In this document: in pieces, positions 3,672 through 38,452 of the stretch
How positions within the stretch are numbered: the stretch's first letter is position 1
Layout of the letters: each line of letters opens with the position of its first letter
Source: Planctomycetota bacterium
Lineage (GTDB): Bacteria > Planctomycetota > Planctomycetia > Planctomycetales > Planctomycetaceae
DNA length: 64,000 nucleotides
Direction of reading: 5' to 3'
Assembly: GCA_022600195.1 (NCBI GenBank)
Contig: JAHZKX010000026.1
Location: forward strand, 1 to 64,000
The notes under the pieces: generated by a model
What the model saw: only the letters and a program-made list of their open reading frames with translations
Database searches by the model: none
What the model was told of the DNA's origin: nothing
Made by a program: the position numbers and the translations under genes

Positions 3672-3750
3672 GTCAGGGTCCAGCAATAAATGTGTATGGT
3701 TTTTGGGATGGAATTTCAGACAAAAAGAGCAAGACTTATGATAGGCTGAT

Positions 3751-3786
3751 AAAAACAAACGGCATACCCTGAGAGAGTATGCCGTT
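3751..3786 (-). terminator. Intrinsic terminator of the 3828-4787 gene
   Basis: A perfect 10-bp inverted repeat (arms 3758-3767 and 3777-3786, nine-base loop) is followed on the minus strand by TTTGTTTTT. It lies 42 bases past the stop of the upstream secreted-protein gene and before the aldolase start. It therefore separates the two transcription units and argues against the longer aldolase start. Confidence 0.85.
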
Positions 3787-3827
3787 GAGGATTTCTGATT
3801 ATTATCAGGATTCAGTAGCACGTCGGA

Positions 3828-15400: not shown

Positions 15401-18400
15401 GTCCCGTGACACTTGCCTTTGATGCGACGGCGGCTGATGTACAGGCTGCATTAGAAAGCCTGGATTCAATTGGTGTGGGTAATGTACTGGTTACCGGCTC
15501 TGTGTTTACCGGTGGTTTTGTTGTTGAGTTTATTGGCACTTTCCGGGCAGAGTCTCCCAACGCGGAAATCATTATCGATGATACGGGAATTCTGATTGTT
15601 GTACCCACGGTCACGACGATTGCGGAAGGCACGACGCTGAATGAAGTTCAGGAAATATTTGTCGATGGAACTCCAACTGCTGGTGATTTCACCTTGAGCT
15701 TTGATGGTGCGACAACGGGGCCGATTGCCTTTGACGCGGATGCTGCTGCGATTATCGCCGCACTTGATCTCTTACCGACAATTAGTGCAGCTGATGTGAT
15801 GGTGCGTGGCACAGCATTGACCGGATTTGAAATTGAATATGTTGGAAATCTGGCGACCATTAACACACCGCAGATCAGCGTTGATGATACCAATTTAACC
15901 GGCGCCACATTGACAGTGAAAACGACATCCGTAGGCGGTTACTTGAGAGGGATTCGTGGTAACTCAATCACCGGAAACACTGGTGCGGGTGTGGAAATAG
16001 ATCTGGACATGTTTACTTCCTTCTTCGCAGACATCTCTGGAAACACAATCAGTTCGAATGAAACAGTCGGTGTGAAATTAACAGCCGCCGATGCTACTAT
16101 TCTGCATAGCATTGATTTCAGCCTGTCAGTCGATGGGAATACCATGAGTGACAACCGCGGTGCAGGTGTCGTGGTCAGTATTCAAGATACTGCAACCGGT
16201 GATCTCAGCCTCACTAACAATACAATTACCGAGTCCCGCAATGACAATGATACTTCCACTCCTTTTGCCGGGGCTGCCATCTATGTGGATTTGTTAGGTA
16301 CGGATGTCAGTTTTGAAGCACTTAGTCAACTGCGTGACCTGACAATTGATGGTAACTACCTTGGAATCGATGCTGCCAACACCGGCGGCCTGGGGAATGC
16401 TCAAAATGGTATCACAATCCATATTGAAGAATCGACGATTATTGATCGAACTCAAATCTCCAATAATGTGATTTCGAATAACATCGGTGGTGGTATCTTC
16501 TTCCACCGTGAAGATGATGCCCGCGTAGGTCGGGCCATTGTTGATCCCATTGTTGGTGAAGAACGTGCCGTGTTGATTCACAACAATACGATTACAGGAA
16601 ACGTTGAAGGTATCTCTGTTCTGGCACAAAATGGTTCTCTGACGACCACTGATTTCGAAATCAAAGACAATGTGATCTCTAGTAACGTGCGTGATGGTGT
16701 GAGTCTCCATGCTGAAGCAGATGCCACCATCTTTGCTGATATTATCAATAATGTGATCACATTTAACGCACAAAATGGTATTGAATTAACCACACGGACC
16801 ACAAGTTACTTTGGAACTGACCGTCGTGATATTGCGGGTACCTGGATTCAAAATGAAATCAGTAATAACACACGTCATGGAATTCGGATTTCCGGACGAA
16901 TCGGAAACCGCGTGGATCTGGCGCCTCACTATTTATTCATTGGATTGGATGGGGTTGATCCCATTACCGGTGAAGATCGGGGGAACCTGATTGAGAGCAA
17001 TGGTCGTGATGGAATTCAAATTGCCGCTCATCAGGATCGTATAAATGGAAATGTCAAAATTGCCAATAACTCGATTCTCTCCAATGCCACAGGTGGTCTG
17101 GAAATTTTAGGGGAAGGGCTAAGTTCCTCGATCGATGAAAACCTGATCGCCTTTAATACGGGCAAAGGGATTGATATCAATTCTAATAGCTTTAGTTCCG
17201 GCGGTCAGACAGTATTTATGCGGAACAATGTCATTACCGAAAATACGGGCGATGGTGTGGAAATACTGGCTGCAAATAGTATTTCCCACTCTGAAGATGG
17301 GTTTACACAAACGCTAACCCTGTTTTCTTCGGGAAAGACAAGTGTCACTGCCATCGGCAACTTTATCGACAACAATGGTGGTCGTGGTGTCGACCTTCAG
17401 ACCGAAGAACGGGCCAATTCTGATTTCATCTTTGGTGATGGTACAGAAACGGGTGCGAACCGCATCGTATCGAATGCCCTTGAAGGATTTTATGTCGTTA
17501 CAACGGCTTCCCGTGGTCAGGATCAGGATGCAAACAGCACGGCAGCCCTGGATGTCACAGGAGATCCGTTCTTCTCGGACGCTGATATGGTCTTACAGGT
17601 GGCTACCAACTACATCCAGGATAACGGTGTGAACAGTGGTTTTTCAACCACTGGTATGGTCATGCGGATTGGTACTTCAGACTCCGCTCGGAACTTTACG
17701 GACCAGACTCCAGGGAATGCCGGTAGTGTGGGTGATGAAGGTAGCGGTGATGCCGCCAATGGTCGATCCAATGTCTCGATCACAAATAATGAATTTGAAG
17801 GTAACTTTGGTGAAGATGTTTATTTTGAATCCTTCACCTCTACCGTGGACCCACCAACGACTCAGGATAATTGGGATAGCGCAGCAAACCCACCTTTCCG
17901 AGTACTTAGTTCCTACCATCGTGATCCATTAGCCAAATTGAATCTGGTATTTCAAGGGAATACTGGTAACGGTTTGGATGTGGTCAATTCGGGAGCGTTC
18001 TATAACAATGCAGAAATCGAATTTAAGTCGCGCGTTCGAAATGGTACTCCAGCTCCAAATCCGGATGGTCCCTTTTCGAGTGCAACGCGTCGACGTAACG
18101 CGCAACGTGTTGCCTCACGAACTAACTTAGCACCGTCCAGTGCACCCAATCCTGCACCCACTGCAGTGGGTACTGTGGCAAATGCATTCCTCTCCGCTCC
18201 CGGCGGACCCATTCAGATTACGACGACAAACCCGCATGGTTTGTTTACATTTGATACTGTTGAGATCACTGGTGTGTTATCAGACGAACTTTCTGGTGGA
18301 TTCGGCTTCAGTGATTACAACCCTGCGAATGGCGTGTTCGTAATCGATGTGATTGACGCAAATAACTTTACTTTAAGGAGTACCGAAGGTGCCGATCTGG

Positions 18401-21400
18401 GTAATGTTATCCAGAACAGAGGAACCTGGTCTAATAATAATAATGGTGCATTCCTGTATGACGGAATGGGTGTCAGTACATTCCGTATTGCACAAGGCTT
18501 TGATGGAGTGGGTAATGGTTTTCAGTCCGGTGATTCATTCTTAAGCTCTGCATTTCTTGGTAGCTCATTCGGAGAGCTCAATTTTGAGTGGGATATCTGG
18601 ACTCCCGACGCTGATACATTCCTGGTTCCAACGGTTCAAACTTTTTTGACAGCAGATATTTCTGTGGCCGTTCCTGATCCGACAACCGGAGCCATTGATC
18701 CACTGATTATCTCCTTTACGGAAGATGTGGTCGGCGTTGATATCAGTGATTTTGTGTTGTTGCGGGATAATGTCGTTGTTGATCTGGTGGCTGAAGGGGC
18801 GATACTGACGCAACTCACATCACGCACGTTTGAATTGGATTTAACTTCGGTGACAGGCATCGAAGCAGAATATGATCTACGTCTGGTGACAGACGGTTCG
18901 ATCTCTGATGCAAAATACATTAACCCATTCGCACCCCTGGGTAGCGCTGCTCCCGTCAACTTCCTGTCCTTCGGCGATGTGGAGCGGTTCACCGTTGATA
19001 CGACAATTCCTGTCGCGGATATTGTAGATGTAAGTCCCGATCCGCGTAGTGATGCTGCCGGTGAAGTGGTTGTGAATTTCAGTGAAGATGTGATCGGCGT
19101 TGATCTGAGTGATTTTACCATCACATTCGATGGCGGTCTTCCAGTTAGTCTGGATTCCACACCCGCTACTTTGACTCAAGTGACCGGTAGCCAGTTTGTA
19201 CTCGACTTGAGTAAGGTTTCCGGTTTGTCTGGCGATTATGTTTTGACGCTTAACGCTGGGGGATCTTCGATTACCGACCTGGCTGGAAATGCTCTGGCAG
19301 CAAATGCCACTGATATGTGGAGCAATGATACACTGGCTCCGATTGCACAATTTGTGAATGTGGTAGACCCCGTTGCTTCAGGTACTGATCCATTCTTCTT
19401 TGTGGAGTTGAATTTTTCTGAAAATGTGACGGGTCTTGCACTCTCTGATTTCACATTGGATGATGGTCAAGGAAATGTTGTCAATCTTGCCACAACGAGT
19501 GCGACAATCAACACGATTACTCCTGCCAATTATGAAATTGTGTTAGGAACTCTGGCAGACGTGAATGGGATCTATACGCTGACTTATCATTCCGAAGCAT
19601 CTGCAGTACAGGACGCCTCCGGAAACGAAGTTTCAGGTTCGACTTCTGAGTCCTGGCAAAAAGGTCTCGAAGTGATCGCGCCAACGGCAGGGATTCAGGA
19701 CATCACACCGGACCCCCGTCCTTCCGGATCTGTTGTAGGCGTCGTGACGATTAATTTCTCTGAAGATGTCACTGGCGTTGCTCTCTCTGATCTTGAGTTG
19801 CTTTTTGACGATGGTAGTGGTCCGATCAGTATTGGTTTAGGAGCCTTAACTCTTACGACCGTGAATGCATCTACGTATCAGATCAATTTGAGCACAGTGA
19901 CAGCCCTTGATGGTGATTATACATTCAACTTGCTGACGACGGGATCGATTGCGGATCTTGAAGGAAATTTATTTACGACCGGCGCCTCTGACAGTTGGCG
20001 TACGGGTGGTACGGGTCCGGTAGCGACGATTGAAGATCTGCCCGATGTTCTGGTCACGAATGCCGGCGTTGTCACTGTGACTTTCGACCAGGCTGTGACC
20101 GGCGTTGATATCACTGATTTCCAACTGACACTCAATGGTCAGGATGTTTCACTTGCGGGTCTGAGCGTGACGCCCATCAGTGGAACTCAGTATTCCATCG
20201 ATTTGAGCAGCGTTACCTCTGTGTATGGCAATTATGCATTGACTCTGGTTGCTGCCGGTTCCAATATTCGCAACATCTCCAGTGATCCTGTATTAACAGA
20301 TGCCACTGAAACCTGGGTGGCAAGTTCGAACATCAATTTAAATCTTACCGTTCCCGTCTTAGCTGATGGAATTGATTCGGTTTCCGGCGATGGAGTCATC
20401 GGTGATGGATCGGCGGGAACTCAGACGTTGCGTGCTGCCATTCAGGAAGCAAACGCTCTGGCTGGTTCAAATAGCATTGATCTCGCCGCTGGTACTTATG
20501 TACTGAGCATTGGTGGAATCGATGAAGATCTATCCGGAACGGGTGACTTGGACATTCGCGATAATCTGACGATTCGCGGTCAAGGTGTTGGCGTTACGAT
20601 CATTGATGGTGGTGCCCTGGATCGTATTTTCCAGGTCTTTGCCGGAATTACATTGAATCTGGAAAATCTGACGATTACCAATGGAGCCTTAACGGGTAGT
20701 TCCGATGGAGCTGGTATTCGAAACAGTGGTACGACGACTTTAACCAATGTGGAAGTGACTGGAAACGTTGCCGCGGACAGTGCTGGTGGTCTGAATAATA
20801 CAGGTCTGATGATTCTTGTCGACAGTACTGTTTCAGGAAACAGTGCTGGCGGAAGTGGTGGTGGTATCCGTAATACGGGAACTCTCGAAGTCACTCGAAG
20901 TACCATCAGTGGCAACAGCACCGCACGCGATGGTGGTGCCATCTTCAATGCCGGTGCCGGGAATGTGACGTTATCCAATTCTACGTTCTCAGGTAACCAT
21001 TCAGATCGCAGTGGTGGTGCGATTCGAAACACGTCTACGCTGACTGCTACGAACAACACATTTACGCTCAATGATGCAGGGACAAACGGGGGGGCCATTT
21101 CCAATACCGGAACTTCTACTTTGCAGAATAACCTGGTACTTGCAAACACTGCTGCAACCAATGGTGAACTAAACGGAGATTTTATCAGTCTGGGAGGCAA
21201 CCTGACTGGGTTGCTTGGTTCTGCGACCGGAATTGGTGCTTTAGATATTGTTAATGTGGTAGATCCGACACCGGTTCTTGATTTAACATTAGCAGACAAC
21301 GGCGGCCCAACGCTTACACATGCACTACTCCTGGGAAGTATCGCCATTGATGCAGGTGCAAGTATTGGTGTGGACGAATTTGAACAACGGGGAAGCGCAC

Positions 21401-24400
21401 GAATTTTGGGAAGCAGTGTCGATGTTGGAGCTGTCGAATTTGGTGCGATCTTTGTAAACAGTTTACTGGATACAGTCGATGTGACTCCTGGAGATGGAAT
21501 CGCAGCCGATGCGGATGGAAATATCACCTTGCGAGCTGCCATTATGGAAGCCAACGCATTATTTGGTGATTCTGTCATCATACTCGGACCAGGAATGTAT
21601 GATTTGACAATCTTGAATCAGATTGACTCTGATCTGGATGATGCATCGACGGGCGATTTAGATATAACAGATTTCACGGGTAGTTTAACAATAACAGGTG
21701 CGGGTAACGGTCAAACCATTATTAACGCATCTGCACTGGATGACCGTGTGTTTGATGTGCTTGTTGGTATTGATTTGACTCTGGAAGGAGTAACCATCAC
21801 CGGTGGTCATGCGGTTGATGGAAGCGGTGGTGGTATCCGTAATCTAGGAACACTATCTCTGTTGAATACGGTTGTAGATGCGAATACTGCTGACATAAAT
21901 GGTGGTGGAATTCTCAATGGTCAGCTTGATCAACAGGGAACATTAAATCTGTTGAATAGTACAGTTTCCAATAACAGTGCTGTTGACGGTGGCGGTATTT
22001 TCAATAATGACCAGTCAACGGTGACTCTGGTCGATTCTGGTGTCACTGGAAATACTGCCTCCAGTGATGGTGGTGGTATCTTCAATGAACTTGAGGCCAC
22101 AATTGATCTGACACGCAGTTCAATTTCAGGTAACACAGCCACGTTGGATGGTGGTGGTATCTACAATAATGATCTGGCCAGCCTCACGATTAACGACAGT
22201 AAAGTGAACAGCAATACGGCGGATCAGGGAGCAGGTATCTTCAACGAAGAAGCCGCTGCTCTGACAATCAACCGAACAACCGTGTCAGGAAACAACGCGT
22301 TACTGCACGGTGGTGGTATTTACAATGATGAAGGCGTGGTTTTACTCAGCGATGTTTCCATCTTAACTAACATGGCAGCCAGCGATGGTGGTGGTCTTTA
22401 CAATGCTTCCGCTGGTGATGTAACGATTAACAACAGTTTCTTCGATGATAACTCTGCAGACCGGGATGGTGGAGCCATCGCGAACTTTGGAGTTAGTCTG
22501 TCTTTGACCGGGACGATCATCAGAGACAGTGAAGCATTGAGGAATGGTGGTGGTTTATTCAATGATCAGGAAGAAGGGGCCGTGAATCTGACTTCTACTT
22601 TGCTGATCAACAATGAAGCCGTTGCCGGTGGTGGTATTTATAATCAGGAACTGGGAACGATCAACCTCGATCTTTCTGCCGTGACTGCTAACATTGCCAG
22701 CACAAATGGTGGTGGTATTTATAATAAGGATGATGCCACACTCAATCTGCTAAGAAGCACCGTGGATGGTAATGTTTCGGCGAATGATGGAGCTGGTATC
22801 TTTAACGAGCACAACGCTCAATTGAACGTCGTCAACAGTACTGTTTCGAATAATATTGCCGCTCATTTTGGGGGTGGTATCTATAACAACTCAATCGCTC
22901 TGGCAAATGTTGAGAACGCGACCGTCTCAGGCAACGATGCTGCAGAAGGTGGTGGGATTTATAATGATGAAGAAGGAAGCATGGAAATTACCAATGCGAC
23001 CATCTTCGATAATTCCGCAACGACCGGTGGTGGAGTCCTGAATGCCGTCGATGGTTATGTGAGTGTTGCGAACTCAATCATCGCTGGCAATGACAGTGTT
23101 TCTCCTGGTCCCGATGTCACAGGGGATTTTGATTCTCGTGGAAATAACCTGATTGGTGTTGGTGGAGTTTCTACTGGTTTCACCGATGGTGTCGACGGAG
23201 ATTTAGTGGGATCATTCGGGGCGCCAATTAGTCCTGGTCTGGGAGCATTACAAGACAATGGTGGATCCACCTTTACTCATGAGTTGCTAGGCGGAAGTCT
23301 GGCACGTGATGCAGGTAACAATTTCTATGCTCCCACAGATGACCAGCGTGGTTTTGCCCGTTTATTCGATGGCGATGGAAACGGTTCATTGATTGTTGAT
23401 ATCGGAGCATTTGAATCTGGATATATTGTGACCAGCTTTGGTGATTCTGTTGATGCTGCTCCCGGAGATGGTGTGAGTGTTGATGAAAACGGCCAAAGCA
23501 CATTGCGTGCAGCCGTCATGGAAGCCAATGCTCGTGCAGGAGCCGATACGATTCTGTTGGGCACAGGAGTTTACACTCTCTCCCTGTTTGGCCAGTATGA
23601 AAACAACTCCTTGCTGGGTGACCTGGACATTACAGACGATTTAACCATTATCGGTGCGGGTTCAGGCCGAACCTTTATTGACGCCGACTTCCTGGACCGT
23701 ATCTTCCATATCTTCACAAATATTAATGTTTCCATTCGCGGCGTGACGCTTGTGAATGGAAGTGTTACACGTGTGGAAGACGGTGGTGCGATTCTGAACT
23801 TTGGTAACCTGACATTGGAAGATGTGACAATTGAGAACAGTCTCGCCAACCGTGGTGGTGCTCTGTTCAACAATGGGACCGTCAACATGACGGACAGCTT
23901 CTTCCATAGCAATACTGCAATTGCTGAAGGGGGAGCCATCTTCAATAACGATTCTGGTACGATCACCATCGATATGAGTACCATTTCCGGCAACGATGCT
24001 GAAAATGGTGGTGGTATCTTCAACTCCACAGGGGGAACTCTGGGAGTCAACGACACGACAATCGACGGCAATACTGCAACGGTTGCCGGTGGTGGTGTGT
24101 TCATTTCAAATGAAGTGGCTGTGGGGAATGGTGAAGGTGGTAGCGGCGGGGCTGTGCCTGCGGCCACAAGTGCGGTTGTGTTAGCAGAAACGTTTGAATT
24201 ACACACTAGTCCTAAATACGATTACGCAGCAGCTGGCATCTTGAGTGAAGCTCCTCCATTTCCAGTCAGCGATACGTTCAACCTGAGTTCGCTGCCCGGG
24301 GCTAACTTCACGATTTATCTCGATTTCAATGGGCACACGACAACTGGCACACAGTGGAACACCTTTTTCAATCAGAATACGATTGTTACCCCTGCTTATG

Positions 24401-27400
24401 ATACTGATGGCGACGTCGGGACATTCAGCATGGACGAAATCGAAGATATACAACGAGCCTGGCTACGTGTTGCTGAGGACTTTGCTCCGTTTAATATCAA
24501 TGTTACAACCGTGGAGCCACCAGTCAGCGATCTGATCAGGAGCGGTGACTCAGATACGCGCTGGGGTGTGCGTGTCGTCAGTGGTGTGGACACCTTTGAT
24601 CTCACTGGTACCGGGGGCCTTGCATTCCTGACATCGTTCAACGACAGCACCGACACACCAGCCTTCGTATTTAACGCAGGTCTGATTGGTGTTGCCGAGA
24701 CGATCAGCCACGAAGTGGGACACACACTGGGATTAAACCATGATGGTACGTCAGCTTTGGAATATTACCGGGGTCATGGAAGCGGTGCAACGGCCTGGGC
24801 TGCGATCATGGGGGCTGGTTTTTTACAGGAAGGTCTGGTCCAGTGGAGTAGTGGTGAATACACCGACGCCAGCAACGGCGAAGACGATCTGAGTATCATC
24901 ACAAGCCAGAACGGATTTAGTTATCGCGCCGATGATCACGGGAACGCTATTGGCTTTGCGTCAAGTATCACCGGTGGCACGGCTTCCGGAATCGTCGAGC
25001 GAAACTCAGATGTGGACTTTTTCCAGATCACAACCACTGGTGGCGATGTCAGCATCGATCCATTCTTCGAGAGTCCCAACCTCGACATTCTTGCCGTGTT
25101 GTACGATTCCAGCGGCACTCAGATTCAAACGAGCAATCCACTTGGCGCTCTCAATGCGTCATTCACCGGACTGGCAGCTGGTACCTACTTCGTGTCCATC
25201 GAAGGGACAGGTGAAGGAGACGTTTTGGGAACGGGTTACTCAGATTACGCGAGTTTGGGGCAGTATACAATTACGTTTAATGCCGAGCCTCCTATGGTGG
25301 AGGTCGGTGACGTGTTGTTTTCCAACAGTACTATTTCGAATAACTTCGCCGGTACCCGTGGCGGTGGATTATTGAATGAAGACACCATCGATATTTCCAA
25401 TGTGACCTTCTCAGGAAACGAAGCTGGCAAAGAAGGTGGTGCGATTCATAACACGGGCGTACTGACAATCAATAATACGACTATTTATGACAATCTGACT
25501 GAAGGTTCAGGCGGTGGAATTTATTCGGTATCTGGTTCAGCCAGTGTGACTGCCAAGAACACCATCATTGCCGGCAATCATGCTTTGGTGAGCGGTTATG
25601 ATCTGGAAGGTGTGTTTACTTCAGCAGGCAATAACCTGATCGGAACACCCGATACAGCAACCGGCTTTATTGACGGATTCCAAAATGATATTGTCGGGTC
25701 CAATGCACAACGCATAGACCCCGTCTTAAGTGTGCTTCAAGACAATGGTGGCGCGACCTTCACTCACGCAATCCTTGCGGGAAGTCTGGCGATTGATGCT
25801 GGCGACAATACAGATGGTGTTGTGATTGACCAACGTGGGGCAATCAGGCCGACCGATACCACGAGTGATATTGGTGCTTACGAAATTGTGACTCCCACAA
25901 TCAGTATTTCCGATATCAGTCAGGTAGAGACTAATTCTGGAACGACAATGTTTGAGATTTTAGTTTCACTCTCGAACGTTAATGTTGATGAAGTGACAGT
26001 TGACTATGAAACTTCAAATGGAACTGCTGTCGCTGGTATTGACTATGAATTTACAACAGGCACTGTGACCTTCTCGCCTGGTGAAACCACCCAGACGATT
26101 GAAGTGATCGTCAATGGAGACATGGATGTTGAAGATCATGAAACATTCTTTGTGAATCTGTTCAATGCCGTTGGGGCCATGATTGGCGACGATCAATCAC
26201 AGGGAACCATTCTGAACGATGAAGCGGATATTTCGATCAGCGATGTAGTCGCTCTGGAAGGTCCCATAGGTACCACAACGAATTTCAACTTTGTTGTCAC
26301 TCTGGCAACTGCTGTTGCAGATGTTGTGACAGTCGATGTTCAGACAATGGATGGCTCTGCCTTGCTGGCTGATTTTGATTATGTTGATCTGCCATTGCAG
26401 ACAATTACGTTTAACCCAGGTGAAACCAGTAAGATTGTGACCGTTGTGGTGAACGGTGATTCCAATATCGAAAGTGATGAGACATTCACAGTCCAACTGT
26501 CGAATCAAAGTGCAAATGCAACCATCTCCGATCCTACTGGAACAGGTACGATTGATAATGACGACTTTGCGTTACTTTCGATCAGCGATGTGACCTTGAC
26601 GGAAGACTTTGGTGGGGCCACGACCAGCTTCACATTTACCGTCTCGTTGTCTCAGGCAGCTGGTGCACCTGTCACTGTGAATGCATCGACGATTGATGGT
26701 ACAGCAACTTCAGCGTCCGGTGATTATGTCGCATTTATGGATGTACCTATCAACTTCACGGCGGTCGAAACAGAGCAGACGATCACGGTGACCGTCAATT
26801 CAGATGCGTTTCCAAATGAAGGGAATGAAACCTTCTTCGTAGAACTTGATCCTTTGAGTGCAATGAATGCAAATGTTGCTGACGGCTTAGGAGTTGGAAC
26901 CATAGTCGAAAATGGAATTGTCGTCACCACGTTTGATGATATTGTCGATTCCGGTGATGGTTTGCTTTCACTGCGTGAAGCTATTACGGAAGCCAATGTA
27001 ACTCCCGGAACAGATAACATCATTCTACAGCCTGGCATTTATAATATGGGTATTGCCGGTGTTGGTGAGAATGGGAATGCTACCGGCGACTTTGATATTC
27101 TTGATGATATCAATATCTTTGGTCAGGGTTCCAATTCCACAATTATCGATGCACATGGGATCGATCGTATTTTCCACACAGGTGCTGGTGTGGCACTGAA
27201 CCTGTCTAATATGGAGCTGAGAAACGGTGATGCCGATGATGGTGGTGCCTTGTTTACTCAGGGACCGACGGTTCTGAATCAGTTAATCTTCCGCGATAAC
27301 AATGCCGACTTCCTGGGTGGTGCGATTGTCAGTGCCACCGATATTGATATTACTGATGCTCAGTTCCTGAATAACCATGCCGGTTTCCAGGGGGGAGCCC

Positions 27401-29898
27401 TGTATCAATTCCAGGATACGGCAACGATTTCTCGTTCCATATTTAGTGATAATACCTCAGATGCACGTGCTGGAGCGGTTTATGTTGCCTCTGCTGCGAC
27501 TTTTGATGTTTCACAGTCGTTGTTCAACAATAATGATTCAGGAAGCCGTGGCGGTGCGATTTACAACGAAGGTATCACCTTCTCTACCAATACGACATTC
27601 TCCGCAAACCATTCCGGATCCCGCGGTGGCGGAATCTTCAATGATGGCGTGCTGAGTGTTTTGAATAACACGCTGACCCTGAACACGGCAGATCAATCAG
27701 GCGGGGGGATTGCCAACGATTCTACCGTGAATCCAGGTGCAGTGGCGACTCTGGACAATACCATCGTCGCTGGAAACAGTGGTGCCTTGGGGAATGATGA
27801 TCTGGATGGAGCCTACACTACGAGCTTTAATAACCTGATTGGAAATGTCGATACAGCAACCGGTTTGACAGATGGAGTTGATGGAAACATTGTTGGCTCT
27901 CTGATCTCTCCCGTTGATCCTAATCTGGGAATTCTGCTCGATAATGGTGGTCCAACCCGAACTCATACCCTGTTATTTGGCAGTCTGGCGATTGATGCCG
28001 GACGTAACGCTTCAACACCACCGACTGATCAACGTGGGTTACTAAGACCCGTTGATGGAAATATGGATACAGTCGCTATCGTTGATATCGGAGCCGTTGA
28101 GTTACAGTCTCCACCACCGCCACCATTATTTGGAACACAAGGTGATGCCTCAGATGCGGAAGAGCAAACAAACATCCAGATTTCTGTGGTTAAAGACCGA
28201 ACAGTTGTTTCGAGCGATGGGCACACATTTGCGTTACCAGCCGATGCAGACTGGCTTCACGAATGGGATTCATTCTGGGTTGAAGTCTGGGTTGATACAG
28301 CCAGTGGATTTGGTGTTTCCGATGTCTTAACTGATATCGCGTATAACACAGCCTACTTCAGTGCAACCTCTGTTGAATTTGGTTCAAACTTCTCGTTCAA
28401 CAGAACGGTCGTTATTGATGATGAAGCAGGTGTTGTGCGAAATCTGGGTGGTAGCACGATTCAATCGAATGTGGGTGGAACGGGACATGCCTTGTTAGCC
28501 CGCATCAAATTTGAATCGCTGGCAGGAGATCAGGTAGAAGTAGATCCATCCGATTTGACATTAGATCCACTTGAGCTTGGTCTGGAAGTACTGAATACAA
28601 AAGTTGATATTGCTGGCGTGGGTGAAGTCATTGCGAATGTGGGAGCGTTACCTCAAACCGAGCTCTATCCCGTGATCTACGATATCAACGATGATGATGC
28701 TATCAATTTCCGTGATCTGATGATTTTCGCATCGGTTTACAGTCAAGAAGTTTATAATTCATCTTCACAGTTTGTCGCAGCGATGGACTTTAACAAGAGT
28801 GGTCGCGTCGACTTTAGAGACCTGACTCAGCTTGCTGCGAACTATGGTAAACGCAAGAGCGGAAATACTGCAATCAATTACCCGACCACCTTCGGTCAGA
28901 AATGGATTGGAACTTCGCTGGAAGTGGCCAGTGGTGATGATAGTATCGGACAGGTGATTGAAGCGGCCGTTGATACCTGGGAAACGGCACTGAACCTGGA
29001 AGAGCCTCTGGAAGTAGAAGTGATTGTGCGTGATTTTGGTACGGCTCAACTCGGGTCCGGTCAGACTACGGAATACAGTGTTGATGGAATTCCCGTTGCT
29101 GGTCGCGTTGTCTTAGACGATGATGCCAACGGTTTAGGATGGCACGTCGATGTGGCAGATCTTCCTGCGGGAACTGGTTATGACCTGTATACAGTTCTGT
29201 TACACGAAATCGGGCACGTACTCGGGTTCACCCGTTATTACTCCGGCTTTAATAACCTCGTTGAAGCAGATGGTAATGGTGACCTGACATTTGTTGGATC
29301 AGACTTTACGGTCGACCTGGATGCAGCCGGTTATCACGTCGATGATCCAGATCATGTCGATGATCTGATGAGTGAGACGCTTGATCCTGGCGTTCGTAAA
29401 AACCTATCCGCCCTGAGTGTTCAAATGTTGCTGGAGTCTTACGAGAATGTGGGAGCAAGTGGTGGCGGTGGAAGCAGCAGTCCGCTATTTGGAACCAATT
29501 CAGTATCTGCTGAAAATAATGTGGAACCAGTGTTGGTCAAAAGCACTGAAGCAGCGAAAGTCTTTGTTGATCAGTCAACGGTTGGTTTTGTTGCTCCAGC
29601 TGCCATCAAGAATACTGAAGAAGATAGTTCACTGGATCAACTTCGAGAGGTGGGTACCTTCGATGCGATTCAACCAAGTTTTGTTGATCAAGGGACTCCA
29701 TTCGAACGTTCTGAAGTGGATGAATCGATCTTCGAAGACCTGTATTCAACGGAATTTGAAAATAGCCTGACAGGATCTGATATAGATGATCGGGAGTTGG
29801 TGTTTGCCCATTCGGAAGATGAACAGGCTGACGATTTTAGTGAGAACCTGGAATCGATGGATGAAGCCTTCAGTAACTGGGAAGGTCCCCTGTTGTAG
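12418..29898 (+). CDS. Giant multidomain surface protein (LEPR-XLL-type, beta-helix, Ig-like, Calx-beta, protease, dockerin)
   Basis: 5826 residues, start supported by GGGAGA upstream. A basic N-terminus leads to IEQLEDRTLL, an LEPR-XLL-type planctomycete export motif. Approximate domain order: beta-helix (60-385); seven repeats of about 110 residues (388-1173); beta-helix (1175-2000); five SwmB/Ig-like repeats (2078-2640, consensus FSEDVxGVDLSDF); three CSLREAI-type beta-helix modules starting near 2640, 3014 and 3669 (TLRAAIMEANA, then GGGIYN coils); a metzincin-like protease set in the third (3955-4168, HEVGHTLGLNHD, His4098/His4102/His4108); a PPC-like domain (4180-4290); beta-helix return; three Calx-beta domains (4493-4836); a fourth CSLREAI module; a cohesin-like domain (about 5252-5415); a dockerin (5422-5480); a second HExxH segment at 5596-5600; and an acidic tail. 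Probably a cell-surface adhesin or matrix protein with proteolytic potential. Confidence 0.95.
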   Translation: MLLTSWVESMRVAFEKSRKATLNPRRRLQLRSMPSSARQKIQRRVAIEQLEDRTLLTSLIINQLTPGLGVTLDNSVLDPDADGVSNFDSIIFEDLTINATSGPAVSIDLDNLTFTEPFDILFDNVSISSTSGIGVDIELSNLLVDTIAVDSSTISGSVGNAFNVDLTNVIFNEFNIVDSTLTGQTGAGTTVALNASTIEETSIRRSTIDGIAFDVTNGSVLRHTTMTDNSISGATGNDGVSLNLVDSIAEEFRLTNNNAIQGVSINVDDTVDGGAALLTELFIHSNSITGNTEGAGVSLTLNNVDQFVSITDNSITDNSSHGVVFDHTDGDLSGDISGNVIANNVGHGIFFSPTTTNPVPTGDGAPGVPAFVGVPGPTDKIDFSGVRNEVQLITFAGIPTGGTYTISYTGGDGVTETTAGILATSTASQVKAAMVAAFSEIGVGDILVNGNFQDGYEVEFINAVGGRNINPLTIDPAGFNSSPATVTVTQTTAGNVNEIQHFEVSTVPTFGFFQLSFLGETRTLAFGNADPSDPLAVAAIATALNDMAVTANPNFSGNPIVVTSTGTGFDIEFTGTMEKRDVPPITVDASGLRLFVDVVVGPVQVNPNKPSPQTITFVSIDEFGVPSIETPTGGVFRLTFQGETTGDIAIDADPAVTAANIEAALEALPSATTKTGIEGDFFVTGDFATGFVIEFNEIQHLSMIGSNDPTFGTFDITFLGQTAQFPFSVAIPSNFNATVLENALNNIANGQGFAGSPVNVVPAGNGYDIIFLDSGTLSNVDIPQITSDASQMQFNIVIANSVQGNGTTDEVQTLDFFNSQGGFPFTFAANNIDITNPPVGAAFTITFAGETTQGIVIAATPAGTAANIDAALEALIFATGPDDFAVTGDFVNGFVITFQGDLGMANMPLMFANVFPLDVIPGTLVGNFDISIVVPIVGTTFSADPLDPFALTPSVDIVATTTTQGIELNEQQTISIPNVPGGGTYDLDFPLSTNGPVTLAFDATAADVQAALESLDSIGVGNVLVTGSVFTGGFVVEFIGTFRAESPNAEIIIDDTGILIVVPTVTTIAEGTTLNEVQEIFVDGTPTAGDFTLSFDGATTGPIAFDADAAAIIAALDLLPTISAADVMVRGTALTGFEIEYVGNLATINTPQISVDDTNLTGATLTVKTTSVGGYLRGIRGNSITGNTGAGVEIDLDMFTSFFADISGNTISSNETVGVKLTAADATILHSIDFSLSVDGNTMSDNRGAGVVVSIQDTATGDLSLTNNTITESRNDNDTSTPFAGAAIYVDLLGTDVSFEALSQLRDLTIDGNYLGIDAANTGGLGNAQNGITIHIEESTIIDRTQISNNVISNNIGGGIFFHREDDARVGRAIVDPIVGEERAVLIHNNTITGNVEGISVLAQNGSLTTTDFEIKDNVISSNVRDGVSLHAEADATIFADIINNVITFNAQNGIELTTRTTSYFGTDRRDIAGTWIQNEISNNTRHGIRISGRIGNRVDLAPHYLFIGLDGVDPITGEDRGNLIESNGRDGIQIAAHQDRINGNVKIANNSILSNATGGLEILGEGLSSSIDENLIAFNTGKGIDINSNSFSSGGQTVFMRNNVITENTGDGVEILAANSISHSEDGFTQTLTLFSSGKTSVTAIGNFIDNNGGRGVDLQTEERANSDFIFGDGTETGANRIVSNALEGFYVVTTASRGQDQDANSTAALDVTGDPFFSDADMVLQVATNYIQDNGVNSGFSTTGMVMRIGTSDSARNFTDQTPGNAGSVGDEGSGDAANGRSNVSITNNEFEGNFGEDVYFESFTSTVDPPTTQDNWDSAANPPFRVLSSYHRDPLAKLNLVFQGNTGNGLDVVNSGAFYNNAEIEFKSRVRNGTPAPNPDGPFSSATRRRNAQRVASRTNLAPSSAPNPAPTAVGTVANAFLSAPGGPIQITTTNPHGLFTFDTVEITGVLSDELSGGFGFSDYNPANGVFVIDVIDANNFTLRSTEGADLGNVIQNRGTWSNNNNGAFLYDGMGVSTFRIAQGFDGVGNGFQSGDSFLSSAFLGSSFGELNFEWDIWTPDADTFLVPTVQTFLTADISVAVPDPTTGAIDPLIISFTEDVVGVDISDFVLLRDNVVVDLVAEGAILTQLTSRTFELDLTSVTGIEAEYDLRLVTDGSISDAKYINPFAPLGSAAPVNFLSFGDVERFTVDTTIPVADIVDVSPDPRSDAAGEVVVNFSEDVIGVDLSDFTITFDGGLPVSLDSTPATLTQVTGSQFVLDLSKVSGLSGDYVLTLNAGGSSITDLAGNALAANATDMWSNDTLAPIAQFVNVVDPVASGTDPFFFVELNFSENVTGLALSDFTLDDGQGNVVNLATTSATINTITPANYEIVLGTLADVNGIYTLTYHSEASAVQDASGNEVSGSTSESWQKGLEVIAPTAGIQDITPDPRPSGSVVGVVTINFSEDVTGVALSDLELLFDDGSGPISIGLGALTLTTVNASTYQINLSTVTALDGDYTFNLLTTGSIADLEGNLFTTGASDSWRTGGTGPVATIEDLPDVLVTNAGVVTVTFDQAVTGVDITDFQLTLNGQDVSLAGLSVTPISGTQYSIDLSSVTSVYGNYALTLVAAGSNIRNISSDPVLTDATETWVASSNINLNLTVPVLADGIDSVSGDGVIGDGSAGTQTLRAAIQEANALAGSNSIDLAAGTYVLSIGGIDEDLSGTGDLDIRDNLTIRGQGVGVTIIDGGALDRIFQVFAGITLNLENLTITNGALTGSSDGAGIRNSGTTTLTNVEVTGNVAADSAGGLNNTGLMILVDSTVSGNSAGGSGGGIRNTGTLEVTRSTISGNSTARDGGAIFNAGAGNVTLSNSTFSGNHSDRSGGAIRNTSTLTATNNTFTLNDAGTNGGAISNTGTSTLQNNLVLANTAATNGELNGDFISLGGNLTGLLGSATGIGALDIVNVVDPTPVLDLTLADNGGPTLTHALLLGSIAIDAGASIGVDEFEQRGSARILGSSVDVGAVEFGAIFVNSLLDTVDVTPGDGIAADADGNITLRAAIMEANALFGDSVIILGPGMYDLTILNQIDSDLDDASTGDLDITDFTGSLTITGAGNGQTIINASALDDRVFDVLVGIDLTLEGVTITGGHAVDGSGGGIRNLGTLSLLNTVVDANTADINGGGILNGQLDQQGTLNLLNSTVSNNSAVDGGGIFNNDQSTVTLVDSGVTGNTASSDGGGIFNELEATIDLTRSSISGNTATLDGGGIYNNDLASLTINDSKVNSNTADQGAGIFNEEAAALTINRTTVSGNNALLHGGGIYNDEGVVLLSDVSILTNMAASDGGGLYNASAGDVTINNSFFDDNSADRDGGAIANFGVSLSLTGTIIRDSEALRNGGGLFNDQEEGAVNLTSTLLINNEAVAGGGIYNQELGTINLDLSAVTANIASTNGGGIYNKDDATLNLLRSTVDGNVSANDGAGIFNEHNAQLNVVNSTVSNNIAAHFGGGIYNNSIALANVENATVSGNDAAEGGGIYNDEEGSMEITNATIFDNSATTGGGVLNAVDGYVSVANSIIAGNDSVSPGPDVTGDFDSRGNNLIGVGGVSTGFTDGVDGDLVGSFGAPISPGLGALQDNGGSTFTHELLGGSLARDAGNNFYAPTDDQRGFARLFDGDGNGSLIVDIGAFESGYIVTSFGDSVDAAPGDGVSVDENGQSTLRAAVMEANARAGADTILLGTGVYTLSLFGQYENNSLLGDLDITDDLTIIGAGSGRTFIDADFLDRIFHIFTNINVSIRGVTLVNGSVTRVEDGGAILNFGNLTLEDVTIENSLANRGGALFNNGTVNMTDSFFHSNTAIAEGGAIFNNDSGTITIDMSTISGNDAENGGGIFNSTGGTLGVNDTTIDGNTATVAGGGVFISNEVAVGNGEGGSGGAVPAATSAVVLAETFELHTSPKYDYAAAGILSEAPPFPVSDTFNLSSLPGANFTIYLDFNGHTTTGTQWNTFFNQNTIVTPAYDTDGDVGTFSMDEIEDIQRAWLRVAEDFAPFNINVTTVEPPVSDLIRSGDSDTRWGVRVVSGVDTFDLTGTGGLAFLTSFNDSTDTPAFVFNAGLIGVAETISHEVGHTLGLNHDGTSALEYYRGHGSGATAWAAIMGAGFLQEGLVQWSSGEYTDASNGEDDLSIITSQNGFSYRADDHGNAIGFASSITGGTASGIVERNSDVDFFQITTTGGDVSIDPFFESPNLDILAVLYDSSGTQIQTSNPLGALNASFTGLAAGTYFVSIEGTGEGDVLGTGYSDYASLGQYTITFNAEPPMVEVGDVLFSNSTISNNFAGTRGGGLLNEDTIDISNVTFSGNEAGKEGGAIHNTGVLTINNTTIYDNLTEGSGGGIYSVSGSASVTAKNTIIAGNHALVSGYDLEGVFTSAGNNLIGTPDTATGFIDGFQNDIVGSNAQRIDPVLSVLQDNGGATFTHAILAGSLAIDAGDNTDGVVIDQRGAIRPTDTTSDIGAYEIVTPTISISDISQVETNSGTTMFEILVSLSNVNVDEVTVDYETSNGTAVAGIDYEFTTGTVTFSPGETTQTIEVIVNGDMDVEDHETFFVNLFNAVGAMIGDDQSQGTILNDEADISISDVVALEGPIGTTTNFNFVVTLATAVADVVTVDVQTMDGSALLADFDYVDLPLQTITFNPGETSKIVTVVVNGDSNIESDETFTVQLSNQSANATISDPTGTGTIDNDDFALLSISDVTLTEDFGGATTSFTFTVSLSQAAGAPVTVNASTIDGTATSASGDYVAFMDVPINFTAVETEQTITVTVNSDAFPNEGNETFFVELDPLSAMNANVADGLGVGTIVENGIVVTTFDDIVDSGDGLLSLREAITEANVTPGTDNIILQPGIYNMGIAGVGENGNATGDFDILDDINIFGQGSNSTIIDAHGIDRIFHTGAGVALNLSNMELRNGDADDGGALFTQGPTVLNQLIFRDNNADFLGGAIVSATDIDITDAQFLNNHAGFQGGALYQFQDTATISRSIFSDNTSDARAGAVYVASAATFDVSQSLFNNNDSGSRGGAIYNEGITFSTNTTFSANHSGSRGGGIFNDGVLSVLNNTLTLNTADQSGGGIANDSTVNPGAVATLDNTIVAGNSGALGNDDLDGAYTTSFNNLIGNVDTATGLTDGVDGNIVGSLISPVDPNLGILLDNGGPTRTHTLLFGSLAIDAGRNASTPPTDQRGLLRPVDGNMDTVAIVDIGAVELQSPPPPPLFGTQGDASDAEEQTNIQISVVKDRTVVSSDGHTFALPADADWLHEWDSFWVEVWVDTASGFGVSDVLTDIAYNTAYFSATSVEFGSNFSFNRTVVIDDEAGVVRNLGGSTIQSNVGGTGHALLARIKFESLAGDQVEVDPSDLTLDPLELGLEVLNTKVDIAGVGEVIANVGALPQTELYPVIYDINDDDAINFRDLMIFASVYSQEVYNSSSQFVAAMDFNKSGRVDFRDLTQLAANYGKRKSGNTAINYPTTFGQKWIGTSLEVASGDDSIGQVIEAAVDTWETALNLEEPLEVEVIVRDFGTAQLGSGQTTEYSVDGIPVAGRVVLDDDANGLGWHVDVADLPAGTGYDLYTVLLHEIGHVLGFTRYYSGFNNLVEADGNGDLTFVGSDFTVDLDAAGYHVDDPDHVDDLMSETLDPGVRKNLSALSVQMLLESYENVGASGGGGSSSPLFGTNSVSAENNVEPVLVKSTEAAKVFVDQSTVGFVAPAAIKNTEEDSSLDQLREVGTFDAIQPSFVDQGTPFERSEVDESIFEDLYSTEFENSLTGSDIDDRELVFAHSEDEQADDFSENLESMDEAFSNWEGPLL
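13579..15935 (+). repeat. Seven tandem ~110-residue repeats in the giant protein
   Basis: Repeats begin near 13579, 13900, 14250, 14500, 14840, 15300 and 15630. Each follows the scheme (N)EVQ, then GGTFxLxFxGETT, then IAxDAxAAxIxAALExL, then VTGxxxxGFxVEF, then PxIxxDxSxL. The copies are well diverged, so the array is old. This looks like a small beta-rich domain strung as a spacer between two beta-helices. Confidence 0.8.
24280..25290 (+). other. Metzincin-like protease plus PPC-like domain inside the giant gene
   Basis: The segment encodes TIYLDFNGHTTTG, a helical stretch (EIEDIQRAWLRVAEDFAPF), HEVGHTLGLNHD and a Met-turn-like AAIMGAG. Next come VQWSSGEYTDASNGEDDLSII and a beta domain with ERNSDVDFFQITTTGGDVSI and LAAGTYFVSIEG, typical of PPC domains. 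Three His ligands and the catalytic Glu4099 are intact. The beta-helix repeats on either side continue the same module, so the cassette appears inserted into it. Confidence 0.75.
28681..28860 (+). other. Dockerin type I domain within the giant gene
   Basis: Two EF-hand-like loops, DINDDDAINFRD (from residue 5422) and DFNKSGRVDFRD, have Asp/Asn at positions 1, 3 and 12. Each is followed by a short helix (LMIFASVY, LTQLAANYG), the standard dockerin layout. It directly follows a cohesin-like segment in the same chain. Confidence 0.75.
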
Positions 29899-34750: not shown

Positions 34751-37700
34751 TTAGCCATTCGTGCGGATTGTCAGTGCTTTGATGGGATCTAATAAGCGGC
34801 TGAAGTCGCGGACCCGTTCCATTGTGGATGAGATTTCTTCCTGGAGTTTTTCGGTATGGGAGCCATATCCCAGTCTACGTGCCAGGAATTCGAACTCTTC
34901 CAGGTCCTGTGGGGGGACGGTGAGGTCTTTCGCATTTCCTCTGACCATGCGTAGTGCATCAATGAGTCTGCGGAGGAAAATGTAAGCGTTCTGTAAATTC
35001 TGGAAATCGTCAGGGCTGATCAGACCCAATTCCCTTAAGGCGTGAATCCCTTCCAGTGTATTGGTGGTTCTCAACATGGGATTTCGGTGCCCGTAAGTGA
35101 TTTGCAGACCCTGAATGAGATATTCACAATCGACGAGTCCACCATCACCGAGCTTGGCATTGATGGTTCCACCTTTTACCAGTTGCTGAATTTGTTTTTC
35201 TCGCATGGCCAACATGGCAGCCACATCAAAAGGTTTTCCTTTATAAATGATATCATCACGCATTCTGACAATCGTGTTTCCAAAATTTTCATCTGCCGCG
35301 ATGGGGCGGAGCTTAACCAAAGCCTGCCGTTCATAAGGCCAGGCGGCCCCGTCGTGAGAAAAGTAATTCTGAAATGCTTCAGCGGAGACTGCCAGACTTC
35401 CCGCTTGTCCATAGGGACGGAGCCTCAGATCGATTTGAAAGATGCCCTCGCTTCTGGCCTTGATGAGTTTGGTGAATTTTTCGACCAGTTTCAAGTAATA
35501 TTCATTATTGGTAATGATTTCCGGCCCCGTTGTCTGTCCGGATCCTTCATAGATAAACATCAGTTCGATATCAGATGCAAAGCCGAGTTCGCGACCTCCG
35601 CATTTCCCCAATGCACAAATCGATAATTGACAGGGCTCCCCAGATTCTAACTGGGGAAGACCATAACGTTCCTGCAATGGTTTGTTGCAGATCTCGTAAG
35701 CGCCTTCTACAACGACCTCTGCCACATCTGACAATTCTTCGGAGAACTGTCCAAACTCGGAAATGTGACCTAAGATATGCCTCATATCTTTGCGTAGCAT
35801 CGCGCGGTCTTTGAAGGCGTTCAGTTTTTCCTGTAATTCTTCGCGGGTAGTCGCTTGCGCGAGTTCACTGGAAAGCTCGGCATTCAGATCATCAATCGAG
35901 ATGCGATTCGTCAGTTCTTCTACATTTGCGACGACAGGAAACAGATTGGAGTGTTGCAATCGCAAAAAGTCTTCCCAAAGAAAATCACTCACGCCCAGGA
36001 GTCTGGCTAACGCGCTGAGTACACTGGTGCGTTCGAGTGACGAAATTTCTTCGACCCAGTTTGGTTGTTTGAATAGCTGTTCCAGAAATTCACGAAAATG
36101 TAATAATGCCGATTCCGGATTTGGTGAGCGCGGCAGTAGGTGCGTGAAATGTTTGATCAAAACGACGGCAGCTCTCAGTCCCTGCTGTTGTTCTTCCGAG
36201 CTGATTTTTTCCCCTTTATCATCAGTGACGTAAAGCACATCTCTGACCTTCGCTGCTTCGGAATCAATGACCATTCTGGCAATATCAATGCCACTGAGGG
36301 CAAGTGCGTTGGTCAGTTCGTAAAGGAAACCAATCGTATCCTCCGATTCGATTCGCAAAATGGTATGCCTGCCGCTTGTGTCGTTATCCAGTTCGATCTC
36401 GACGGGATACAAAACCTGACTGGCCTGAGACAGATCTCGCATGGCTCTGGCCACGCGTTTTGCCAATTCCCCGACTGCTTCCTGGTTTTTTCCGGATCCT
36501 ACTTTATTGAGCAGGTCTGTCAGGTCATTTTTATAATCGATCCAGACCGCGGGTTGCACATTTTTCTCTGGTGAATTGACATCAAGTACGATCACAAATT
36601 TGCGTGAACTTTTCGAATGGTCTCTCGATTTAGATGATCGACTTTTTGTCGAGGATGCCGGTTTGACATTCTGATTGGTAAACAGGTGCCCTTTCTGAAT
36701 GTCAAATCCATAAACGAATAAGAGTCCACAGATTAAAGAGAGGTCTCCCATTTGATCAATGCCAACCATGGTGAGTCGGATCTGATGATCAGGAATGTTT
36801 TCAGTTTCCAGTTCGACAATATTCGAATCTGCCAGTTTTCTAGACATCTGGATGTGTTTTTCGATTTCTTTTTCGCTAAACACTTTGGAGTAAGAAGCAG
36901 ACATCATGCCGATGAGATTGCTATCCTGTTCAGAATCAGCTGTATCAAGTTCTGAATTCTTTTCGAGCGATGCATGGATATATTTTTTAAAAATGCCTCT
37001 CACGGCTTTGCGGTGTTGTTCATAAAATTGAACCAGTTGTTTCCCATCGCGAAAATCAAGTCGACGCGCCAGGTATGCCAACTCCCGTTCGTCAGTGGGC
37101 ATATTGTGTTCCTGGTTGTAGTGCATTAATTGGAGTGCGTGTTCAATTTTTCGAAAAAATACATATCCACTGGTGAGATGCTGATACTCATCTGGCTGAA
37201 GTAACCCTTGATCGACGAGTCTCACAAGTCCATCAAGGGTATTGATGCTGCGAACGGAAGAATACATTGCACCGTTTGCCATTTGCAGATACTGCGTGGT
37301 AAATTCGACATCCCGAATGGAGCCTTTTCCCGATTTGACTTCTCCCCAGTCTTTGCCTTTCTTTTTGAGTGTGGTTTCGATGCGTTGTTTCATGTCAAGG
37401 ACATTCAATCTTACATCTTCCGCATCACAACTGAAAATCTGTGGTTCAATCCTTCGAAAAAACTCGGAGCCCAGTTTTTGATTTCCGGCAATGATCCGTG
37501 CTTTCAGCATCGCCTGCTTTTCCCAAAGTCGTCCATGTTTTGCAAAATAATCAACATAGGCGTCAACGGTTGTGACCAGTGCCCCCGAGCGGCCCCAGGG
37601 GCGCAGCCGCATATCAACACGATACAGAAAACCTTCCGACGTGGATTCCATCAACGATTTGATAAGACGCTGTCCCAATTGCCAGTATTGTGTCGAATTT

Positions 37701-38452
37701 TTTCCTGCAATAAAAACAAGGTCGATATCAGAGCTGTAATTGAGTTCTTCTCCGCCCAGTTTTCCAAAGGCGAGTACCGCGAAATCATCAACGGGCAATT
37801 CCAGCTCTTCCGAAAGGATGGTCAGGCAGGATTGAACGAGACCATCCGCCAGGAGAGAGAGTTGCACGGTAATATTTTTCAGGTCCATTAATCCGAAGGT
37901 ATCACAGGCGCCAATGCGCAAGAGTTCCCAGCGCTGGAAACGTCGTAAGATGTCGAATTTTTCTGCCGTCGTTGTCGATTCCAAACGCGTGCCCGCCATG
38001 GCCTCTGAATAAAACTGTTGTTGGCTTTTAAATTCCGCAATGCGGTTGTAGCGTGTGAGTCTTTCCAGATAGTCCGGATTTTTTAACAGGATTTCTGTTA
38101 AAAACTGACTTCCGACAAAGAGCTTCACAAGAATCTCAACCGCCCGCGGATTTTGTGTGAGGAAATTCAACATAAGTTCGGGTTTTGAGACGCTATTGAT
38201 AAAACGCTCAAAATTGATCAAAGATCCATCGGGAGTGGCTGCGTCGGTCAGTGTCTGTAGAAGCGTGGGCAGGATGAGAGTCAATTCTTCACGAATGCGG
38301 GTCGTTGTACACATCTCGCGTAAGCGGATCAGTGCCCGTTCCTGATCTGTAAAGCCGATTCCCGAAAGGATGAGTTGAAGGTCTTCATCAGTAGCGGGAA
38401 CACTTTGGTCCAGCAGCTTTGGTGCACACTCGAAATTGACGGGGTTGTTCAT
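34751..38452 (-). CDS. glnE: Bifunctional glutamine synthetase adenylyltransferase/deadenylase with inserted ACT-like domains
   Basis: About 1233 residues from ATG 38452. The frame stays open to TTG 38608, adding a Cys-rich 52-residue extension without a clear ribosome binding site. GlnE attaches and removes AMP on glutamine synthetase in response to nitrogen status. Both nucleotidyltransferase halves are present: LAFGKLGGEELNYSSDIDLVF in the N-terminal (deadenylylating) half and CALGKCGGRELGFASDIELMF in the C-terminal half, each followed by a helical GlnE domain. Typical GlnE has about 950 residues. The excess is a central insertion with two ACT-like segments (about residues 555-590 and 695-750, for example DTIGFLYELTNALALSGIDIARMVI) joined by a Ser/Lys-rich linker. 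These resemble the C-terminal ACT pair of GlnD, so direct glutamine sensing is plausible. Confidence 0.93.
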   Translation of the reverse strand: MNNPVNFECAPKLLDQSVPATDEDLQLILSGIGFTDQERALIRLREMCTTTRIREELTLILPTLLQTLTDAATPDGSLINFERFINSVSKPELMLNFLTQNPRAVEILVKLFVGSQFLTEILLKNPDYLERLTRYNRIAEFKSQQQFYSEAMAGTRLESTTTAEKFDILRRFQRWELLRIGACDTFGLMDLKNITVQLSLLADGLVQSCLTILSEELELPVDDFAVLAFGKLGGEELNYSSDIDLVFIAGKNSTQYWQLGQRLIKSLMESTSEGFLYRVDMRLRPWGRSGALVTTVDAYVDYFAKHGRLWEKQAMLKARIIAGNQKLGSEFFRRIEPQIFSCDAEDVRLNVLDMKQRIETTLKKKGKDWGEVKSGKGSIRDVEFTTQYLQMANGAMYSSVRSINTLDGLVRLVDQGLLQPDEYQHLTSGYVFFRKIEHALQLMHYNQEHNMPTDERELAYLARRLDFRDGKQLVQFYEQHRKAVRGIFKKYIHASLEKNSELDTADSEQDSNLIGMMSASYSKVFSEKEIEKHIQMSRKLADSNIVELETENIPDHQIRLTMVGIDQMGDLSLICGLLFVYGFDIQKGHLFTNQNVKPASSTKSRSSKSRDHSKSSRKFVIVLDVNSPEKNVQPAVWIDYKNDLTDLLNKVGSGKNQEAVGELAKRVARAMRDLSQASQVLYPVEIELDNDTSGRHTILRIESEDTIGFLYELTNALALSGIDIARMVIDSEAAKVRDVLYVTDDKGEKISSEEQQQGLRAAVVLIKHFTHLLPRSPNPESALLHFREFLEQLFKQPNWVEEISSLERTSVLSALARLLGVSDFLWEDFLRLQHSNLFPVVANVEELTNRISIDDLNAELSSELAQATTREELQEKLNAFKDRAMLRKDMRHILGHISEFGQFSEELSDVAEVVVEGAYEICNKPLQERYGLPQLESGEPCQLSICALGKCGGRELGFASDIELMFIYEGSGQTTGPEIITNNEYYLKLVEKFTKLIKARSEGIFQIDLRLRPYGQAGSLAVSAEAFQNYFSHDGAAWPYERQALVKLRPIAADENFGNTIVRMRDDIIYKGKPFDVAAMLAMREKQIQQLVKGGTINAKLGDGGLVDCEYLIQGLQITYGHRNPMLRTTNTLEGIHALRELGLISPDDFQNLQNAYIFLRRLIDALRMVRGNAKDLTVPPQDLEEFEFLARRLGYGSHTEKLQEEISSTMERVRDFSRLLDPIKALTIRTNG

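Follow-up and report, generated by a model that had tools for sequence, protein, structure and literature searches.

The window analysed here is a stretch of 64,000 nucleotides, positions 1-64,000 of the forward strand of contig JAHZKX010000026.1 (assembly GCA_022600195.1), from a Planctomycetota bacterium of the family Planctomycetaceae. Our subject is a glnE gene on its minus strand (34751..38452; ATG at 38452, stop at 34751-34753), which encodes a protein of 1233 amino acids with a GlnD-like pair of ACT domains between its two catalytic halves; we refer to gene and product as glnE-ACT and GlnE-ACT. The product matches the NCBIfam GlnE equivalog PRK11072 at 516.7 bits, above the cut-off of 487, and returns two Pfam matches each to PF03710 and GlnD_UR_UTase. 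GlnE belongs to the GlnD-PII-GlnE cascade, a textbook case of covalent-modification signalling. In E. coli its N-terminal half deadenylylates glutamine synthetase (GS) and its C-terminal half adenylylates it, with a regulatory domain between them, as stated in PMC12409994.

The N-terminal half of GlnE-ACT, of the deadenylylating (AR) type, covers residues 1-497 (36962..38452, minus strand, as are all features of the gene). It contains PF03710 at residues 107-331, GlnD_UR_UTase at 354-490 and an SDID motif at 241-244 (37721-37732) that is retained in the alignment. There follow a GlnD-like linker (residues 505-555; 36788..36940), ACT1 (approximately 556-653; 36494..36787) and ACT2 (approximately 685-775; 36128..36400), the last helix of which reaches a KHFTHLLP block (36131-36154). 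The R-like region and the C-terminal half, assigned to the adenylylating (AT) type by place and by tree, make up residues 776-1233 (34754..36127) and hold the second PF03710 match and the SDIE active-site motif (Asp961 and Glu963; 35564-35575).

A GlnD-type linker and ACT pair inside GlnE

A first-pass annotation of this DNA had proposed a GlnD-like ACT pair between the catalytic halves, and profile search, alignment, BLASTP and predicted fold all bear it out. In a whole-genome profile search, residues 505-762 match positions 615-844 of the 850 in the GlnD model TIGR01693 (50.4 bits, E 1.9e-13), beginning at the linker, which has a counterpart in GlnD; the alignment is collinear with the GlnD C-terminus through linker, ACT1 and ACT2. 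ACT2 is matched by PF24931 (ACT-like) at residues 686-761 with 29.3 bits, above the cut-off of 27, by PF01842 (ACT) with 19.4 bits, below its cut-off of 27, and by ACT2 of the GlnD encoded in the same genome (36% identity over 70 residues, E 7e-11, BLASTP). ACT1 is weaker by sequence and has no Pfam match of its own; it is nonetheless clear in the GlnD alignment and in the predicted structure. An AlphaFold2 model has a paired beta-alpha-beta-beta-alpha core, supporting the anticipated tandem ACT fold, and in both structural models the last helix of ACT2 (residues 753-775) continues into the start of the R-like region. The structural neighbours of the ACT model include entries with bound Ile, Arg or Ser. 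Paired ACT-like domains with a bound amino acid are likewise found in the arginine sensors CASTOR1 and CASTOR2 and in the threonine deaminase regulatory domain, but these have different partners, and their match to the window's ACT pair is a structural one.

At 946 amino acids, E. coli GlnE is 287 residues shorter than GlnE-ACT. The first-pass annotation had put the whole excess, about 280 residues, in one central block, which overstated the insert: the central block accounts for approximately 202 residues, the N half for approximately 57 and the C half for 29. The block between the halves (residues 491-775) measures 285 amino acids in the window protein and 260-320 in 24 ACT-bearing relatives, 22 of them full-length, and only 77-83 in 16 unfused planctomycete GlnEs and in E. 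coli GlnE; the net insert is therefore about 200 residues, which replace a short linker. The insert was found neither in any of the 16 aligned unfused planctomycete GlnEs nor in E. coli GlnE.

Several residues of this region are conserved. Among 70 fused proteins drawn from a genome scan seeded with the patterns L[IT]KHFTHL and [ED]D[TS][IL]GFLYE, the linker residue H533 is present in all and Y521 and F525 in 68, while D566 and G569 of the ACT1 loop each occur in 69. The invariance of KHFTHL, D705 and G708-GFLYE in these 70 is partly built in, because those patterns seeded the scan. In a set of 25 not drawn by pattern, which shares some genomes with the 70, D566 and G569 are each retained in 21, D705 of the ACT2 loop in all 25 and G708 in 22; KHFTHL varies outside the pattern-drawn set. 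The ACT1 loop between strands 2 and 3 is variable (12-48 residues), and the long loop of the window protein is rich in Lys, Arg and Ser.

An origin of the insert from the GlnD of the same genome was considered and rejected. That GlnD is matched only over ACT2, at the 36% identity given above, whereas the insert is 48% identical over 285 residues to a fused GlnE from Chloroflexota; the lack of an Asp-x-x-Gly loop in ACT1 of the resident GlnD is further evidence against such an origin. In its own right, the loop difference between the two proteins (Asp-x-x-Gly kept in ACT1 of GlnE-ACT, absent from ACT1 of the separate GlnD, locus L048, 3857-6553) raises the possibility that sensing may be shared out between them.

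GlnE-ACT shares with E. coli GlnE (PDB 1v4a and 3k7d) its two homologous nucleotidyltransferase halves, the catalytic motifs and an R-like helical region preceding the C half; it differs in that a linker and ACT pair of GlnD type replace the short linker, and in carrying Asp-x-Glu in the C half. The order linker, ACT1, ACT2 is that of the GlnD C-terminus, but here the ACT pair sits inside a GlnE and a separate full GlnD is also encoded in the genome. No HD (uridylyl-removing) domain was detected in GlnE-ACT among Pfam matches up to E 10, and its two TIGR01693 matches (model positions 32-265 and 615-844) skip the HD part; against the full-length model it scores 83.2 bits, below the cut-off of 519.4. 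Judged by sequence, the sensor end of GlnD (linker, ACT1, ACT2) has been built into GlnE directly ahead of the R-like region and C half.

No description of a GlnE-ACT fusion was found in the open-access literature searched. The plant protein ACR11 also connects a GlnD-like ACT pair with GS, being co-expressed with plastid GLN2 according to PMC3173338; it differs from GlnE-ACT as a stand-alone two-ACT protein with no catalytic domains. A 2025 paper (PMC12702975) describes GS activity in acr11 mutants as similar to that in controls.

Catalytic halves and half enzymes

Nucleotidyltransferase motifs are retained in both halves of GlnE-ACT. A swapped order of the halves had to be considered, since the N half was matched by the AR as well as the AT structure from E. 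coli and the best NCBIfam stretch was odd. For the N half this was rejected: it scores 320 bits with a profile hidden Markov model (HMM) of unfused N halves and 263 with the C-half model, and so is of AR type. For the C half the HMM scores are ambiguous (276 bits AT-type, 257 AR-type), and it is the tree of halves that speaks against a swap. There, the C halves of fused proteins fall into a single clade (100/100), which joins the C halves of unfused planctomycete proteins (89/88); the branch leading to the fused clade measures 1.03 changes per column. The E. coli C half has no settled position in this tree.

The C-half active-site motif reads SD[IV]E in 70/70 fused proteins and in 23 of the 24 ACT-bearing relatives in the alignment set, the exception being G095 with SDLD. 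Unfused planctomycete C halves carry SDxD (16/16), as does E. coli. Read from the alignments, Asp-x-Glu in the C half is a mark of the group.

Four genomes encode only an ACT-ACT plus C half: G057 and G228 from Planctomycetota, and G371 and G294 from the phylum sample of G247, a phylum in which GlnE is rare (5/121 sampled genomes, one of them a weak match). Each has a single PF03710 match genome-wide, and full GlnD was found in none of the four. In the tree of halves, G057, G228 and G294 cluster together by their C halves (100/100), and the C half of G371 groups with that of G095 (100/96). Because the half enzymes fall in separate clades, absence of the AR half probably arose repeatedly, either through loss or because this half had never been acquired. 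Forms that dispense with the N half would show which half the sensor serves, and these four fit a sensor serving the adenylylating half; against this idea, the loop Gly of ACT2 is replaced by Ala in G057, G228 and G294. A GS gene lies approximately 2.3 kb from the half enzyme of G057. By eye, the half enzyme of G294 (L187, frame 1984-4629) has an extra C-terminal stretch resembling the R-like region that precedes a GlnE half, and two PII proteins of G057 (L136 and L155), a genome lacking GlnD, do not have the Tyr51 motif.

Distribution and genomic setting of the fusion

The phylum sample comprised 244 genomes, of which 88 encode GlnE. All 27 sampled genomes of the window's family (Gimesia and its kin) have the long GlnE form, 21 of them by alignment and six by frame length and spacing or by a TIGR01693 (GlnD-ACT) match. 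Outside the family, the ACT pair is present in four more aligned genomes (G003, G095, G057 and G228). The remaining 57 were classed as without the ACT pair, 16 by alignment and 41 by open-frame length, by the spacing of GlnE matches where listed and by the absence of GlnD-ACT among the matches listed; two of the 57, G027 and G082, have a single GlnE match each.

A wider scan of named genomes covered 80 of 140 confirmed loci, to which the following locus counts refer. They divide into 23 from Planctomycetota (including Gimesia, Planctomicrobium and Schlesneria), 54 from Chloroflexota (chiefly Anaerolineae), one from a Spirochaetales metagenome-assembled genome (MAG) and two with no phylum given; the closest of the 80 to the window, from an uncultured Gimesia, is 95% identical over the insert query. 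A quick tree was built from just the catalytic halves, with five unfused rows as the root and branch support from the Shimodaira-Hasegawa-like approximate likelihood ratio test (SH-aLRT) without bootstrap; in it, the 72 fused rows separate from the unfused ones (SH-aLRT 100). A planctomycete group (31 rows, 94) is sister to a Chloroflexota group (39 rows, 84) that includes the Spirochaetales row; G003 and G095 branch outside these two groups; their branches are long, and the tree program flags them as unsure. The fusion is a real, conserved architecture in two main phyla, built of known parts.

Twenty-nine of the 80 loci contain a GS gene: 27 of the 54 from Chloroflexota, the Spirochaetales locus and that of Brevefilum. 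None was found beside glnE-ACT in the 23 planctomycete loci. The two genes are arranged head to head in 25 of the 28 cases with a measured gap, 23 of these within 350 bp of the open frame. Of the 29 neighbouring GS genes, 26 encode DLY[DE]LP, a sequence similar to the adenylylation site of E. coli GS; two were unread and one could not be resolved. GS was present in 14 of 15 Chloroflexota genomes searched, in nine of the 14 no more than a few kb from glnE on its contig, and every one of the 14 best matches contains the tyrosine motif. Eight GS paralogues were also read, with Phe at the tyrosine place in four, Tyr in another context in two and the residue lacking in two. The window genome encodes two GS proteins with the tyrosine motif (DIYDL and DIYDM), a third GS-like protein and a 779-residue GS, of type III by length.

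It had also been suggested that the fusion may bypass the PII relay, with the absence of glnD where the insert is present as a check. The window genome and its family speak against both; in Chloroflexota the check came out positive and the bypass idea fits well. On another contig of the window genome, one cluster contains an AmtB-like open reading frame (named by eye), two PII genes, both with what we take to be the Tyr51 motif, and a full-length GlnD; because these are kept, the role left for the ACT pair there would be that of an additional input. Full-length GlnD and PII occur in 27/27 sampled family genomes (the GlnD of G210 falling just under the model cut-off) and in 29 of 31 ACT-bearing planctomycete genomes, counting PII at E under 1e-10 and as GlnD any long match, including the fragment in G049. 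GlnD is present in 31 of the 57 planctomycete genomes without the ACT pair and missing from the other 26. With 29 of 31 bearers keeping GlnD, the idea that GlnD loss generally goes with the insert was rejected for Planctomycetota. The 26 genomes with GlnE and neither ACT pair nor full GlnD include families f16, f17, f22 and f33.

The picture is different in the 33 fusion-bearing Chloroflexota genomes, which were reached through their loci, have no stated completeness and include Brevefilum, presumably a member of this phylum. A profile search found full GlnD in none of the 33; PII is strong (E under 1e-20) in five, matched only weakly (E 2e-6 to 1e-3) in ten and not found in 18. Among six further fused Planctomycetota reached in the same way, five have GlnD; in the sixth, MAG G278 (completeness not stated), no GlnD accompanies the fusion and the only PII match is a weaker one (E 3.8e-10). 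GlnD of the fusion-bearing Spirochaetales genome scores 381 bits, below the cut-off. In this MAG (locus L124; G276, contig C43), GlnD, PII, GS and a Chloroflexota-type GlnE-ACT lie within approximately 12 kb of one contig, with the GlnD/PII and GlnE-ACT systems side by side.

Proposed control of adenylylation and competing readings

We lean, with a little more confidence than doubt, towards GlnE-ACT being a bifunctional GlnE with a GlnD sensor end, in which an amino acid bound by the ACT pair, most likely glutamine, gates GS adenylylation. The ligand would bind between ACT1 and ACT2, and the last helix of ACT2, entering the start of the R-like region, would relay the change to the half that adenylylates GS. 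Abundant glutamine would then favour adenylylation, and hence inactivation, of type I GS at its conserved tyrosine. In Gimesia the complete PII-GlnD relay would have GlnE-ACT alongside it as an additional input; in Chloroflexota with no GlnD and mostly no PII, the switch could depend on GlnE-ACT alone for nitrogen sensing. Direct glutamine control is a plausible prediction. E. coli GlnE responds to glutamine with no ACT domains, and such control would therefore not be new in itself; a GlnD-type sensor would be.

Several observations weigh against this proposal. The glnE gene of the window genome does not adjoin any GS gene, and GlnD and PII persist there. Since 26 of 57 planctomycete genomes combine an unfused GlnE with no GlnD, a missing GlnD does not in itself call for a built-in sensor. 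The ACT2 loop Gly is Met in G003 and Ala in three of the half enzymes. The HMMs do not cleanly separate the C half, with the AR-type model scoring higher in two of three Chloroflexota C halves, and the C-half motif reads Asp-x-Glu, in contrast to the Asp-x-Asp of standard GlnE. Domain placement in the full-protein model is uncertain (predicted template modelling score 0.54). Finally, titles in the reference list of PMC3480911 report that the R. rubrum adenylyltransferase is unaffected by glutamine in vitro and that the transferase activity of R. rubrum GlnD is glutamine-insensitive in vitro.

Those R. rubrum reports also speak for a rival reading that we consider rather unlikely: direct gating of the enzyme would stand, but the ligand of the ACT pair would be a small molecule other than glutamine (a different amino acid or 2-oxoglutarate). 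ACT domains in general bind many amino acids, and the Ile-, Arg- and Ser-bound structural neighbours are in line with this. On the other hand, the insert is kin by sequence to GlnD, which is described as glutamine-regulated in PMC4285133, and glutamine is the product of the presumed target.

Still less probable, in our estimation, is that the ACT pair binds no ligand and serves for docking or dimerisation, for example with PII, GlnD or GS. Docking beside PII is possible because PII and GlnD are kept in all 27 family genomes, and the long, variable, Lys-, Arg- and Ser-rich loop of ACT1 and the substituted loop Gly of some members would suit it; retention of the loop Asp and Gly in most members, and the lack of PII and GlnD in most fusion-bearing Chloroflexota, speak against it. 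A further possibility, that the C half has ceased to adenylylate GS and the protein acts on some other target, seems to us improbable: the uniform SD[IV]E, the long stem branch, the ambiguous HMM scores and the lack of GS neighbours in Planctomycetota point that way, but half of the Chloroflexota loci adjoin GS, a GS gene is nearby in G057, the GS tyrosine is retained and Asp-x-Glu agrees with the general nucleotidyltransferase pattern.

For Chloroflexota, amino acid gating of GlnE-ACT can be taken a step further, to a scheme that we put forward tentatively, at somewhat less than even chances. GlnE-ACT would there be a single-protein nitrogen switch that senses glutamine and controls the neighbouring GS with no GlnD and mostly no PII; the half enzymes would be one-way, metabolite-gated inactivators, and the Planctomycetaceae protein a sister form working beside the PII-GlnD cascade. 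If this is true, a GlnE with a GlnD-type sensor, in genomes where GlnD and mostly PII are missing, would mean that a single protein can stand in for the relay, Chloroflexota having condensed into it the bicyclic cascade that takes three proteins in E. coli. The fusion also allows a direct question to be asked: whether the ACT pair alone gives a GS adenylyltransferase its nitrogen response.

Elsewhere in the window, the plus strand carries a 5826-residue open reading frame (12418-29898) that, scanned in two pieces, matches beta-helix, Calx-beta and Chlamydia-PMP-type repeats together with reprolysin- and matrixin-like domains, and probably encodes a giant surface or secreted protein.

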